In this document: positions 28,418 through 32,536 of the stretch, piece after piece
Layout: every line of letters begins with the position of its first letter
How positions within the stretch are numbered: position 1 is the stretch's first letter
Origin: a virus
DNA: 40,417 bases
Virus record (IMG/VR): IMGVR_UViG_3300044679_000032
Location: 1 to 40,417 of that record
Reading direction: 5' to 3' (one strand)
Program-made: the position numbers and the translations under genes
The notes under the pieces: model-generated
Databases searched by the model: none
Seen by the model: only the letters and a program-made list of their open reading frames with translations
What the model was told of the DNA's origin: nothing

Positions 28418-29422
28418 TCAAGTGTAATTCCCAAAGATTGCACCAGCCAGGCCCGTGTTGGGACATTCGCGCCACTCGCGCCCATCGAGAATCGCGCCAG
28501 CCGCATGCTTACCAACCTTCATGAATCGCTCCTGTTGTCCATCGAGCGGCTCGTCAAGGGAGATCGCCGGCACCCACTCGCCCCACTGCTTAAAGAAAAA
28601 ATCCACGCCGGCCGCCCGGCATTGGTCCCTCAGCGAGCGCGCCCACTCCAGATGCATCGGTCGCGCATGCGGCCCGCTCTCCCCGCCGACGATCACCCAG
28701 TCGAGCTTCGTCGGGATCTCAGCGCCCGCGTCGACGCCGGCGTTACTCAGCGCGTTGAGATGGCGCCCAATACCGCTCGCACTTGGCAGCGCTTCCAGAT
28801 CAATCAGCCCCAAAAGCGGCTCGGCTGAGATAAAGCGCACAGCCGCCGGCGTCTGCAGCAGTAGCGGAATCCGCTCGTCCGCAGCCCTCTGATTCTCCAC
28901 GCTCACGCCGAGCCATACATTGGGAAGCATGTAGTCCGTCGTCATGCGAGGTAGACCGAGTGACTCTTCATGCCTATCTGCCTGCCAGACCTGTGCCTTG
29001 CCTCTCAGAACGCGCAGCGGGGTATCGCTATCACTTAGGTAAGCCAGCATCCGCTCGGGGCGTTTAGTGAGCACCTGAAACGCATGCTGCGGGCACAGCG
29101 CCATCACCGCGAAAATCCTGTCGCGCAGCTCGTCGCTCACGTTCTCGTGAAACAAATCGCTCATGGAGTTGACAAACACGCGTCGCGGCGATCGCCAACT
29201 CAGCGGCTGCAGCAACTGCCGCGTCTCCTTGATCACGCCGGTCCACACCGAGCGCCCGTTCACAATCTGCGTCAGGCCGCTATAGACCGTCGGCTTACCC
29301 TGGCCAAATCGCCCGGCGATCGTCTCCGCGTAGCAGTTGCGGCAGCCCTCGCTGACCCGCGAGCAGCCCAGAATCGGATTCCACGTCGCGTCGGTCCACT
29401 CGATCCCCGTCTTCGCACCCAT
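28418..29422 (-). CDS. Phage Gp37/Gp68 family protein (DUF5131, radical-SAM-like)
   Basis: 334 residues from the ATG at 29422, in a TGATG overlap with the previous tiny gene. The N-terminus has the family signature GIEWTDATWNPILGC followed by SEGCRNCYAE: Cys20, Cys27 and Cys30 (C-x6-C-x2-C), a candidate 4Fe-4S site. Also visible: RVFVNSMSDLFHE, FQVLTKRPERM, PNVWLGVSVENQ, FISAEPLLG and DWVIVGGESGPHARPMH. The family is common in phages and prophages and resembles radical SAM enzymes; its substrate is unsettled. It may modify nucleic acid or protect phage DNA. Confidence 0.85.
   Translation of the reverse strand: MGAKTGIEWTDATWNPILGCSRVSEGCRNCYAETIAGRFGQGKPTVYSGLTQIVNGRSVWTGVIKETRQLLQPLSWRSPRRVFVNSMSDLFHENVSDELRDRIFAVMALCPQHAFQVLTKRPERMLAYLSDSDTPLRVLRGKAQVWQADRHEESLGLPRMTTDYMLPNVWLGVSVENQRAADERIPLLLQTPAAVRFISAEPLLGLIDLEALPSASGIGRHLNALSNAGVDAGAEIPTKLDWVIVGGESGPHARPMHLEWARSLRDQCRAAGVDFFFKQWGEWVPAISLDEPLDGQQERFMKVGKHAAGAILDGREWRECPNTGLAGAIFGNYT
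28426..28440. repeat. Third copy of the AATTCCCAAAGATTG repeat
   Basis: An exact 15-base copy of the sequence at 28083-28097, but with the dyad cut short (CCCAAAGATTG followed by CACC). It lies over the last codons of the Gp37/Gp68 gene. It may be a half-operator, or a duplication left at the border of the 28118-28402 gene. Confidence 0.5.
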
Positions 29423-29550
29423 CAGCCTCTCCCATCCACACAGACCACCCACGGCCCCAAAAATACGAGCAGCTGCCCCTGCTCAAAATACAAACCCAAT
29501 GCCACGCCCGCAGCGAACTCGCCCAGGATCCTCAGCCGCCCGATCTTCAT
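29422..29550 (-). CDS. Small hydrophobic protein (42 residues)
   Basis: A reading frame below usual size cut-offs: ATG at 29550 preceded by GAGGGGGAAACG, stop TGA overlapping the Gp37/Gp68 ATG. The product (MKIGRLRILGEFAAGVALGL, then FEQGQLLVFLGPWVV) is hydrophobic with a basic N-terminus and could be membrane-inserted. The good ribosome site and two overlaps support translation. Confidence 0.55.
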   Translation of the reverse strand: MKIGRLRILGEFAAGVALGLYFEQGQLLVFLGPWVVCVDGRG

Positions 29551-30051: not shown

Positions 30052-30354
30052 TCAGTCGGCCACGGGGCGCGCGCCCCAGTCGGTGTTTTCCTGCTGGATC
30101 GTCACGCTATATTCTCCGGGAGGCACGACGTGCGCCTTGTGCTCCTGGTGAACGAGTGAGACGTCGCCAGGCTCACCCAGCACTCGGACGTAGGTGTTGC
30201 CGTCTTCGCCTTCGTACATCTCGACGCGATCGGCGACGTCGACTTCTGCGACGTTCGACATGAAGCTGTGATGGTGCCCGGTCACTTCGCCGAGCGCCAC
30301 AGGGCGAAGCTTGACGCGCTTCGCATTAGCGGGAATGGTGTTTTCTTGAATCAT
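30052..30354 (-). CDS. Small GEVTGHHH / QEHKAHVVPPGEY-type partner protein
   Basis: 100 residues from the ATG at 30354 (AAAGGATCCTCC upstream). It holds LRPVALGEVTGHHHSF, then YEGEDGNTYVRVLG, then LVHQEHKAHVVPPGEYSVTIQQE. I recognise this as a small beta-rich protein that occurs beside DUF6745-type proteins in bacteria and phages, and here the next gene upstream (30412-31950) has that C-terminal domain. The pair is likely to work together; the role is unknown. Confidence 0.7.
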   Translation of the reverse strand: MIQENTIPANAKRVKLRPVALGEVTGHHHSFMSNVAEVDVADRVEMYEGEDGNTYVRVLGEPGDVSLVHQEHKAHVVPPGEYSVTIQQENTDWGARPVAD

Positions 30355-30411: not shown

Positions 30412-31950
30412 TTAAGAGTGTGCCTGCTCGAGCGGGCCTCCACTGAGCGGTTTGAGAAACACATCGCCCTGGCGGATAAACCGGCCCCGCTTGTAATCTG
30501 TTTCGCTTTGACCGAAGGTCCAGCCGACAGCCTCGTAGCAACGCGAGTGATCGTGCTTCACGCGGAGCGTGTATTGGCGGCCGGTCGATGGATCCGTGAG
30601 GCGCACAAAGCGTAGCGGCCGATCCTCGAAGTCGCGCAACTCAGCCGACTCGAGCAGTTCCGCGCGTTCCGTGCCGGCACGATAGCTCGTGACCAGGCGC
30701 TGGCCGGCGTCAACGATCGCCGAGACAGGAATGTCGGGAAAGTTTGTGTGCAGCTCGTCGACGTGAATCAGCTTCATCTTGGCGACGGCGCAGAAATTGT
30801 CCCAGCCCATCCGCTCAACCATCACGCGGCGAACCTCGGCGTTTTCCTCCGCTCGAATATGATCGATCGTGATCCAGTCAGGTCTCACTACAACAAACGC
30901 CGGAACCAATACCCCATGCCAGAAATAGAGATTTTCGACGTCTGACTCAAGAGCCGCGTCTTGCTCGTTATGAAGCCGGCGACCGCCGTCGACTCGCTCC
31001 ACATGCACGGCCGGCTTTGCGACCCAATAAAGCGCGTCATTGGTCCAGTAAAGTAGCCACGCGCCCGAGATATAGGCGTCGAGCAGCGGCTCAGCCCATG
31101 CGGATACGGTCGGCGCGGATCGCTGAAAGGCCCCGATCGCCGTGGTAACAATCCATGACAGTTCCCAGCCGTACCACGACCAGCCGCGGGCCTGGATGCA
31201 CCATTGCGCGAAGCGTAATGGTGCATCGAAATTTAGAGCGGCCTGAGCGTCCCGAGCGGCCAGAGCGGCCCGAGCGGCCAGAGCGTCCAGAGCGTCCTGA
31301 GCGGCCCGAGCGGCCTGAGCGGCCTGAGCGGCCAGAGCGGCCCGAGCGTCCCGAGCGGCCAGAGCGGCCAGAGCGGCCCGAGCGTCCCGAGCGGCCAGAG
31401 CGTCCAGAGCGGCCCGAGCGTCCAGAGCGGCCCGAGCGTCCCGAGCGGCCAGAGCGTCCAGAGCGGCCCGAGCGGCCTGAGCGGCCAGAGCGGCCTGAGC
31501 GGCCTGAGCGTCCAGAGCGGCCCGAGCGTCCAGAGCGGCCCGAGCGTCCAGAGCGGCCCGAGCGGCCCGAGCGGCCAGAGCGGCCTGAGCGGCCTGAGCG
31601 GCCCAAGCGGCCAGAGCGGCCTGAGCGGCCCAAGCGGCCAGAGCGGCCTGAGCGTCCCGAGCGGCCAGAGCGGCCCGAGCGGCCAGAGCGTCGGGCTTAT
31701 ACCCGGCTCGCTTCGCAAAATCCGCGAGGATTGCAGCGATGGATCGCTGCAAGGAGGGATGCTCCTCCAGCGTCCAACCGCGGCGCAATTGTACGACGTT
31801 CCGCTCAACGCCCAGAGCGACAAGATAAGCTTTCAGTGATAGCTCAACCGCTGGCGCATCCATTGCCCCTGGGTAATTACACGCTTCGACATAAGCATCG
31901 AACTTTGGATGGCGCTCGGCCAATTTCGCTATCTTGCGCGATTCCTTCAT
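30412..31950 (-). CDS. Ala-rich tandem-repeat protein with DUF6745-like C-terminus
   Basis: 512 residues from the ATG at 31950 with AAAGGAAGAAAA upstream; an upstream TTG at 31965 lies inside that site. Residues 1-85 form a helical N-terminal domain (KLAERHPKFDAYVEACNYPG, ELSLKAYLVALGV). Residues 87-239 consist of 51 three-residue units [AD]-A-[LRQW], predicted as one long helical rod. The C-terminal 270 residues have the DUF6745-like end (MKLIHVDELHTNFPDIPVSAIVDAG, RLVTSYRAG, YKRGRFIRQGDVFLKP). Stop and start are well separated from the 30354 gene. The rod may display a binding surface set by the variable positions. Confidence 0.7.
   Translation of the reverse strand: MKESRKIAKLAERHPKFDAYVEACNYPGAMDAPAVELSLKAYLVALGVERNVVQLRRGWTLEEHPSLQRSIAAILADFAKRAGYKPDALAARAALAARDAQAALAAWAAQAALAAWAAQAAQAALAARAARAALDARAALDARAALDAQAAQAALAAQAARAALDALAARDARAALDARAALDALAARDARAALAALAARDARAALAAQAAQAARAAQDALDALAARAALAARDAQAALNFDAPLRFAQWCIQARGWSWYGWELSWIVTTAIGAFQRSAPTVSAWAEPLLDAYISGAWLLYWTNDALYWVAKPAVHVERVDGGRRLHNEQDAALESDVENLYFWHGVLVPAFVVVRPDWITIDHIRAEENAEVRRVMVERMGWDNFCAVAKMKLIHVDELHTNFPDIPVSAIVDAGQRLVTSYRAGTERAELLESAELRDFEDRPLRFVRLTDPSTGRQYTLRVKHDHSRCYEAVGWTFGQSETDYKRGRFIRQGDVFLKPLSGGPLEQAHS
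31234..31692 (-). repeat. 51-copy tandem nonamer (GMC GCT YDG), 459 bp
   Basis: Every unit reads G[A/C]C GCT [C/T][T/G/A]G on the minus strand, encoding [AD]-A-[LRQW]. By my reading, 21 units end in Leu (CTG; CTA in the last), 17 in Arg (CGG), 11 in Gln (CAG) and 2 in Trp (TGG); 14 begin with Asp. Pro (CCG) never appears in the variable slot. Apart from the boundary unit there is no synonymous variation. No frame on either strand contains a stop, which creates long false frames (ERP, GRS, LWP repeats). Replication slippage is expected to change copy number. Confidence 0.9.
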
Positions 31951-31970
31951 TTTTCTTCCTTTCAATTTTT

Positions 31971-32003
31971 GCGGTGATGACGGATGAACTCCGCCATCAC
32001 CGC
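31971..32003 (-). repeat. Perfect long stem-loop in the leader of the repeat-protein gene
   Basis: GCGGTGATGGCGGA and TCCGTCATCACCGC pair over 14 bp (one G-U) around a GTTCA loop, on the minus strand, ending about 10 bases before the AAAGGA ribosome site at 31950. There is no T-run after it, so it is more likely an mRNA-processing, protein-binding or translational-control element than a terminator. Confidence 0.6.
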
Positions 32004-32131
32004 GTGTCGCGGCAGCCTACCTTCCGCCGCCTTCACAGCCCTGCGAACCTCGCGGGAAGCAGGGCGCAAAGCTTGTCAGTTCGGTTTCCCTTTGGCGCGG
32101 CGATGAATCCGCTCCGCGGCCGCCTTGTCGA

Positions 32132-32536
32132 TCACTTCCCCCAGGTCAATGTGTTTTTAAGCGCGGCGAACCAGGGCAGGTAATCAGCCGCCGCCGCGGC
32201 GAGCAGCGAGGCCATGCCCCACGCCACGAAGGCCAGTACAAACACCCACTCGAAGCGGTGTATCTGGCGCAGCGCCCAGGCGCCGTAGTTGTTGCCACCT
32301 TTCGCTCGCTCGGCCGCCATCTGCTCGAGGCGATCGAGATCGCGCGCGCAGGCATAGCACCGGCTCAGCTCATCGCCCCCGTCCATTTCAACCAGCGCCG
32401 CGCGCCGGCAGCCCGGCGTCCTGCACAAGCTGAAGCGGCGCGCCAGGTTTGTCTCGACCTCTTTGCGGGTCACTGCCGCACCGCGCATAAAGAACGGGCG
32501 CCGGGTCATCGTTTCTTCGTTCTCCATCTCACTCAT
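32132..32536 (-). CDS. Zinc-cluster and membrane protein
   Basis: 134 residues from the ATG at 32536 (ATGA overlap with the previous gene); the longer frame upstream is antisense-like. Residues about 37-63 carry four Cys (SLCRTPGCRRAA..., RCYACARD), a probable zinc site. A membrane segment lies at about 100-118 (FVLAFVAWGMASLLAAAAA). Such membrane-anchored zinc proteins are rare in phages; the role is unknown. A 19-codon GTG frame overlaps its stop but is not called. Confidence 0.55.
   Translation of the reverse strand: MSEMENEETMTRRPFFMRGAAVTRKEVETNLARRFSLCRTPGCRRAALVEMDGGDELSRCYACARDLDRLEQMAAERAKGGNNYGAWALRQIHRFEWVFVLAFVAWGMASLLAAAAADYLPWFAALKNTLTWGK

Follow-up and report, generated by a model that had tools for sequence, protein, structure and literature searches.

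The stretch of DNA analyzed here (the window) is the entire virus record IMGVR_UViG_3300044679_000032, 40,417 bases in length, and its gene content is that of a phage: P22-like portal and coat genes, a terminase gene, a ParB-like gene, a DUF5131 gene and, judged by eye, a lysozyme-like open reading frame (ORF). The gene carrying the repeat array (Table 1) is flanked by the ParB-like and DUF5131 genes, with the structural genes located elsewhere. A PADLOC search with the array protein returned no match. The DUF5131 protein (28418-29452) matched two PADLOC candidate defence models, PDC-M41B and PDC-M30B.

Table 1. Positions of the array gene, its parts and the adjoining partner gene in the window
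Feature	Position	Strand	Description
Array gene, 512 aa, ATG at 31950	30412..31950	-	N-domain, hypervariable tripeptide array and DUF6745; relatives share this layout
N-terminal domain, aa 1-86	31693..31950	-	..EACNYPGxLDexxVExxLxxYLxALG..RxGW..; conserved in relatives
Array, 51 units x 9 bp, aa 87-239	31234..31692	-	GMCGCT(C/T)(T/G/A)G = (Ala/Asp)-Ala-(Leu/Arg/Gln/Trp); predicted helical
C-terminal part with Pfam DUF6745 (PF20530)	30412..31233	-	E = 1.2e-15 for this part alone; tail ..RFIRQGDVFLKPL..
Partner gene, 100 aa, phrog_27831 (GEVTGHHH protein)	30052..30354	-	Adjoins the DUF6745 gene

The PF20530 profile scored 43.8 bits against the whole protein and 57.8 bits against the C-terminal part, compared with a curated cut-off of 27. 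Of 30 loci examined, 27 had a gene of the phrog_27831 family adjoining the DUF6745 gene (L018 and L198 being one contig), and the two also adjoin in Microcystis phages and in prophiGD102-1; this adjacency is not in the Pfam definition of DUF6745. Pfam and PHROG searches of DUF6745 and this partner gave no functional clue, no NLR domain was detected in the window array protein by Pfam, and our literature search found no paper mentioning DUF6745. The RFIRQGDVFLKPL.. motif normally opens the partner protein; in the window (30412-30480), L003 and L004, it ends the DUF6745 protein and is absent from the partner ORF, which appears to be the result of a shifted gene boundary in this clade.

The original prediction, made from the window alone, described a 459-bp array of nonamers, and the array indeed consists of exactly 51 units in frame with the surrounding ORF. 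Fifty of these units fall into seven types (GCCGCTCTG, 15; GCCGCTCGG, 11; GCCGCTCAG, 8; GACGCTCGG, 6; GACGCTCTG, 5; GACGCTCAG, 3; GCCGCTTGG, 2), and their variable bases are confined to nonamer positions 2, 7 and 8, each change being amino-acid-changing. The three variable positions, the lack of synonymous change and the absence of proline from slot 3 were all confirmed for these 50 units; proline never occurred at slot 3 across the array, and the boundary (51st) unit, which ends in CTA, has the sole third-base difference. Slot 2 was GCT in 51 of 51 units, and alanine at slot 1 was always GCC (log10 P of about -48 and -21 for the fixed GCT and GCC slots, respectively, assuming independent units). 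Codon bias was rejected as the cause, because GCT, fixed at slot 2, makes up only 11.6% of the alanine codons of this phage and because the two alanine slots have different fixed codons in 25 of 55 arrays.

A scan with the C-terminal part identified 16 viral loci, nearly all of which had a like array at the equivalent place, the exceptions being L017 with a short array (6 units) and L004 with a 12-bp unit. After pattern and alignment scans, 57 distinct arrays had been identified in proteins with DUF6745. In nearly every 9-bp array, codon 1 toggled between Ala and Asp, codon 2 was Ala, and codon 3 toggled between Arg and another residue. The codon 3 toggle pairs were one base apart (CGC/CTC, CGG/CTG, AGG/ATG and AGA/ATA), so that which hydrophobic residue partners Arg depends on the Arg codon used locally. 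In agreement with the original prediction, comparison of the locus in related phages yielded 1511 non-synonymous and 45 synonymous departures among 1830 units of the 57 arrays (counted per unit, not per independent event), with no synonymous departure in 47 of the arrays; 31 of the 45 synonymous departures were located in two genes (L089 and L188) of one contig. Mean heterozygosity across 51 arrays, with L089 and L188 left out, was about 0.45 at column 2 and 0.46 at column 8, compared with 0.011, 0.006 and 0.003 at the silent columns 3, 6 and 9, the latter becoming 0.006-0.025 when both genes were included. Between arrays, the majority base at column 6 was C in 31, A in 9, G in 7 and T in 6, and columns 1, 4 and 5 had one and the same majority base in all arrays compared. 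Silent bases are frozen in a combination particular to each phage, and the amino-acid choices recur between phages. Most arrays came from metagenome assemblies, in which many short-read contigs stop inside the array, so that unit numbers are uncertain. The contig carrying L089 and L188 (IMGVR_UViG_3300031820_000004) has three DUF6745 genes, each with a different array, and most of the silent variation of the entire set lies in its two 9-bp arrays. A phage-type search of 682 bacterial genomes gave few matches.

Some 150 related arrays elsewhere obey the rule of the window array with other alphabets. A 12-bp class, (Arg/Asp/Gly/His)(Gly/Asp)AlaVal, comprised 68 arrays with 1909:63 non-synonymous to synonymous departures in DUF6745 proteins with a different N-domain, and an R/W class, (Ala/Asp/Glu)Ala(Arg/Trp), comprised 31 arrays at 509:6, with almost all of their proteins lacking a DUF6745 match; these 99 arrays include segments of one gene and overlapping records. 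Zero synonymous variants were observed in gp38 of the Mycobacterium prophage prophiGD102-1, (Gly/Arg/Trp)(Asp/Gly)GlnLeu with 46 units, in Nocardia farcinica NCTC11134, (Trp/Gly/Arg/Glu/Gln)(Ala/Asp)GlnVal with 38 units, and in phage cta39025, (Gly/Glu/Arg/Trp)SerSerLeu with 28 units. The toggling base classes varied by array (A/C, G/T, C/T, C/G and G/A), and the constant feature across alphabets was, nearly always, the exchange of a charged for an uncharged residue. The N. farcinica locus is represented by two database copies (L355 and L356), between which the only differences are single-base gaps in homopolymers; the array frame is shifted by one of these gaps, and they are likely sequencing errors in the plasmid 3 record. 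A hybrid gene in L004 (1930-3576) combines a second-class N-domain and a 12-bp array with a DUF6745 end 74% identical to that of the window, which suggests an exchange of N-domain plus array between phages.

Unit order was near random and turned over faster than the flanking genes. The autocorrelation of toggle order was almost nil, with little linkage within or between units, the net charge was near zero (-0.03 per unit), and the composition across arrays was only slightly over-dispersed (SD of Asp, 0.116 vs. 0.082 for the binomial), which independent toggle flipping would likewise produce; repeated blocks occurred above shuffled levels in about one-quarter to one-third of the longer arrays. 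Phages with identical flanks had matching order except for block differences and differences near contig ends, and at 97% flank identity the unit order was unrelated. In the 12-bp class, the unit order of L314 and L321 was scrambled with flanks 99.60% identical over 8.7 kb; both contigs start inside the array, and the comparison used units next to the DUF6745 side, which is well anchored. Both the selection at the protein level and the rapid differences between close relatives that had been anticipated were supported. The anticipated variation in copy number was found in one near-identical pair (31 units in L015 vs. 50 in L016), for which collapse during short-read assembly is also possible.

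The AF2 model of the window protein (pLDDT, 82 overall and about 80 over most of the array) places the array in two long α-helices (residues 86-168 and 174-239) separated by a weak break, the position of which is not meaningful, as the arrays of relatives differ in length and their alignment is arbitrary. A helical rod at residues 87-239, as originally proposed, is thus supported by the structure prediction. The array of one 12-bp-class protein was poorly modeled (pLDDT, about 28), and the helical rod is therefore claimed only for the class of the window array (class 1). A structure search with the window model gave no PDB match at E ≤ 0.001 and matched only DUF6745 viral models. The proposal that the rod bears a helical face had to be abandoned: hydrophobic and charge moments equaled those of shuffled arrays (hydrophobic moment z, -0.9 to 1.0 vs. 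shuffled order at 96-105 degrees per residue), with no clear periodicity in unit order. An amphipathic helix or a coiled coil with a hydrophobic face was rejected, as the moment was not above that of shuffled order. Antiparallel charge complementarity within the rod reached a maximum of 1.225 vs. 1.121 in shuffled arrays (SD, 0.030), a difference that repeated blocks and the choice of control may inflate.

Rare tags present in at least two copies recorded how the arrays change. Neighbor sharing extended over 1-2 units only (0.54 and 0.46 vs. 0.28 expected), and the tagged units tended to keep their own toggles (0.72 vs. 0.39). In L050, alanine was encoded by GCT in 8 units and GCC in 3, and aspartate by GAC in 36 and never by GAT; GCT therefore spread through copying, without flipping. 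In simple simulations (constant length, one array and no population), dispersed copying of tracts of about 3 units with ends inside units, together with ordinary mutation and a composition limit, reproduced the order statistics: n*r2 was 2.9/3.1 (observed, 2.07/4.00), the longest repeat was 6.5 against 4.9 in shuffled arrays (observed, 6.15 against 4.78), and autocorrelation was about 0 in both. Tandem slippage as the sole engine was rejected, the simulated duplication of short blocks giving an autocorrelation of 0.2-0.45. Neutral drift without selection or flips was also rejected, since toggles became fixed and only 1-2 of 24 runs stayed polymorphic.

Collectively, we consider it likely, at roughly two chances in three, that the array forms a hypervariable rod in the middle of a phage DUF6745 protein, shaped by short-tract copying and by protein-level selection that keeps both toggle states. 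Short tracts, each spanning about 3 units (~27 bp) and ending inside units, would be copied to scattered sites within the array through gene conversion or template switching between misaligned near-identical units. Such copying would homogenize silent sites and shuffle the unit types, and protein-level selection would prevent the loss of either the charged or the uncharged state; through both, each phage strain would come to have its own aperiodic charge pattern along a rod of roughly 20 nm. The earlier suggestion of recent expansion combined with selection is retained in its second half. Recent expansion alone is insufficient, because almost every array retains polymorphic toggles while the silent skeleton changes from one phage to the next. 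This reverses the usual population-genetic picture, in that amino-acid polymorphism occurs in nearly every array and silent differences are fixed between phages, a pattern that strongly signals selection for diversity of the protein in the DUF6745 gene family.

The rod is probably, if only by a little, a changeable surface for phage-host or phage-phage contact rather than a passive spacer, and this is the least certain of our conclusions. As a passive spacer, the rod would be under selection for overall composition only (solubility, helix and charge balance), with its order neutral and produced by the same copying engine, an explanation that we regard as possible but doubtful. A composition window alone reproduced the order statistics in simulation, the absence of a helical face and of clear periodicity is as expected of a spacer, as is the net charge of about zero, and cellular and Microcystis-phage DUF6745 proteins manage without the array. 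However, neutrality would equally be achieved by a rod made entirely of Asp-Ala-Arg, and although near-DAR arrays are known among the short ones, fixation is almost never seen in long arrays; this may hint at more than a demand for charge balance, as may the mixture of charged and uncharged residues that is always found in widely differing alphabets. Between selection on order (recognition) and on composition (spacer), we lean slightly to recognition. A more speculative extension, which we judge unlikely at present, is that phages carry a general diversity-making device, in which arrays of 3-4 aa micro-units in DUF6745 and other proteins undergo targeted change or intense short-tract shuffling that gives the rod a charge pattern specific to the strain, and this pattern is read during a contest over recognition (in host defence, in superinfection or in discrimination between phages).

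In site-targeted hypermutation, a phage or host system would flip the toggle bases only, and selection would be minor. Random order, near-binomial composition and near-independent toggles would all fit this explanation, and a model of copying with 0.5 toggle flips per event and no selection matched the data about as well as the selection model. This model, however, would require a rate of change at toggles estimated to be at least 100-fold that at silent sites, since simulated arrays given 0.02 silent mutations per event already held several-fold more silent variation than the observed ones. Furthermore, the toggle base classes differ between arrays, yet the exchange is nearly always between charged and uncharged residues; GCC toggles when it is codon 1 but not when it is codon 2 within a single array; and the tag in L050 spread with no flips. 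A mechanism that diversifies only the variable sites, one of the two origins originally envisaged, is thus disfavored by the retained toggles of rare tags, by the differing base classes of the array classes and by the lack of a reverse transcriptase in 20 records, and we regard it as improbable even though a hypermutation model can be fitted.

An overlapping frame, a point absent from the original prediction, is a very improbable target of selection. In the frame starting from unit position 3 and its antisense partner, nonamer positions 2 and 8 fall at the third base of a codon, and the window array reads as (RSG)n or (ERP)n with variation that is almost only silent; in frames +2 and -2 the class 1 toggles occupy third positions, and an antisense ORF (31155-32183) is open. 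Nevertheless, the overlapping peptide differs between phages (RPR, RTR, CPR, CAG, RSG and others) and is variable within 13 of the 57 arrays, the R/W and 12-bp classes have no single frame that places all toggles at third positions, and the only frame shared is the one joined to the conserved N-domain and DUF6745. An artefact of assembly or error-prone reads, to which the stopping of short-read contigs in arrays and the possible collapse of array length might point, is equally improbable, given that separate assemblies have the same unit order (L034/L175, and L021/L036 over most of the part in common), that the pattern is present in a Nocardia isolate, with two database copies differing only by homopolymer gaps, and in the prophage of a Mycobacterium isolate, and that errors would strike silent sites too. 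Tests led to the rejection of each of these causes: an overlapping frame, biased codon usage, diversification by reverse transcriptase and assembly error.

Members of the gene family are found in genomes and phages associated with cyanobacteria, actinobacteria and other bacteria, and its arrays may point to an unstudied phage-host or phage-phage contact. They offer a clean system for separating recombination-driven shuffling from targeted mutation and would serve as natural strain barcodes for phage populations.

Several known systems share features with these arrays. The C-terminal domain of the window protein makes it a member of Pfam DUF6745, and the array is absent from the cellular (Obscuribacter and Streptomyces) and Microcystis-phage members examined. 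The nine-bp unit is slippage-prone, as in ordinary microsatellites such as (GCTGCTCTG)n of other phages; those are uniform, whereas the DUF6745 arrays keep two amino-acid-changing polymorphisms. Perfect, invariant (GCTGCTCTG)n arrays of 7-24 units occurred in many other phage contigs (L019, L024, L048, L119 and others), mostly surrounded by short frames. As in diversity-generating retroelements, only chosen codons vary, but the phage variation lies in a tandem array with no template/variable pair seen; such a retroelement was rejected, as no reverse transcriptase (PF00078) was found in 20 records, some of them fragments, with controls matched, and as the substitutions are not adenine-directed, the toggles including C/G and C/T. 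TAL effector repeats have units of about 34 aa with variable di-residues and a known DNA code. Like the phage units, they are near-identical in DNA and differ at few residues, which in TAL effectors are the specificity residues; they differ in unit size and in having a DNA code. In fungal NLR proteins, repeats of high internal conservation (Podospora nwd/het-d and het-e WD40, ANK and TPR) undergo concerted evolution and diversifying selection (PMC1805685, PMC4986451, PMC12222747). As in those repeats, near-identical phage units appear homogenized by recombination and vary at few amino-acid positions, and they may also share their changing number; silent sites are uniform within arrays and different between genes, and the non-synonymous excess is concentrated at few codon positions. 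The fungal units are whole WD40, ANK or TPR repeats in immune-type receptors, in contrast to the 3-4 aa units of the phages, and the silent sites within a phage array are, unlike theirs, almost perfectly uniform. Recognition has been shown for the fungal repeats; for the phage rods it is a candidate role. Among the systems compared, the fungal NLR repeats are the nearest known regime, which the phage arrays resemble with far smaller units.
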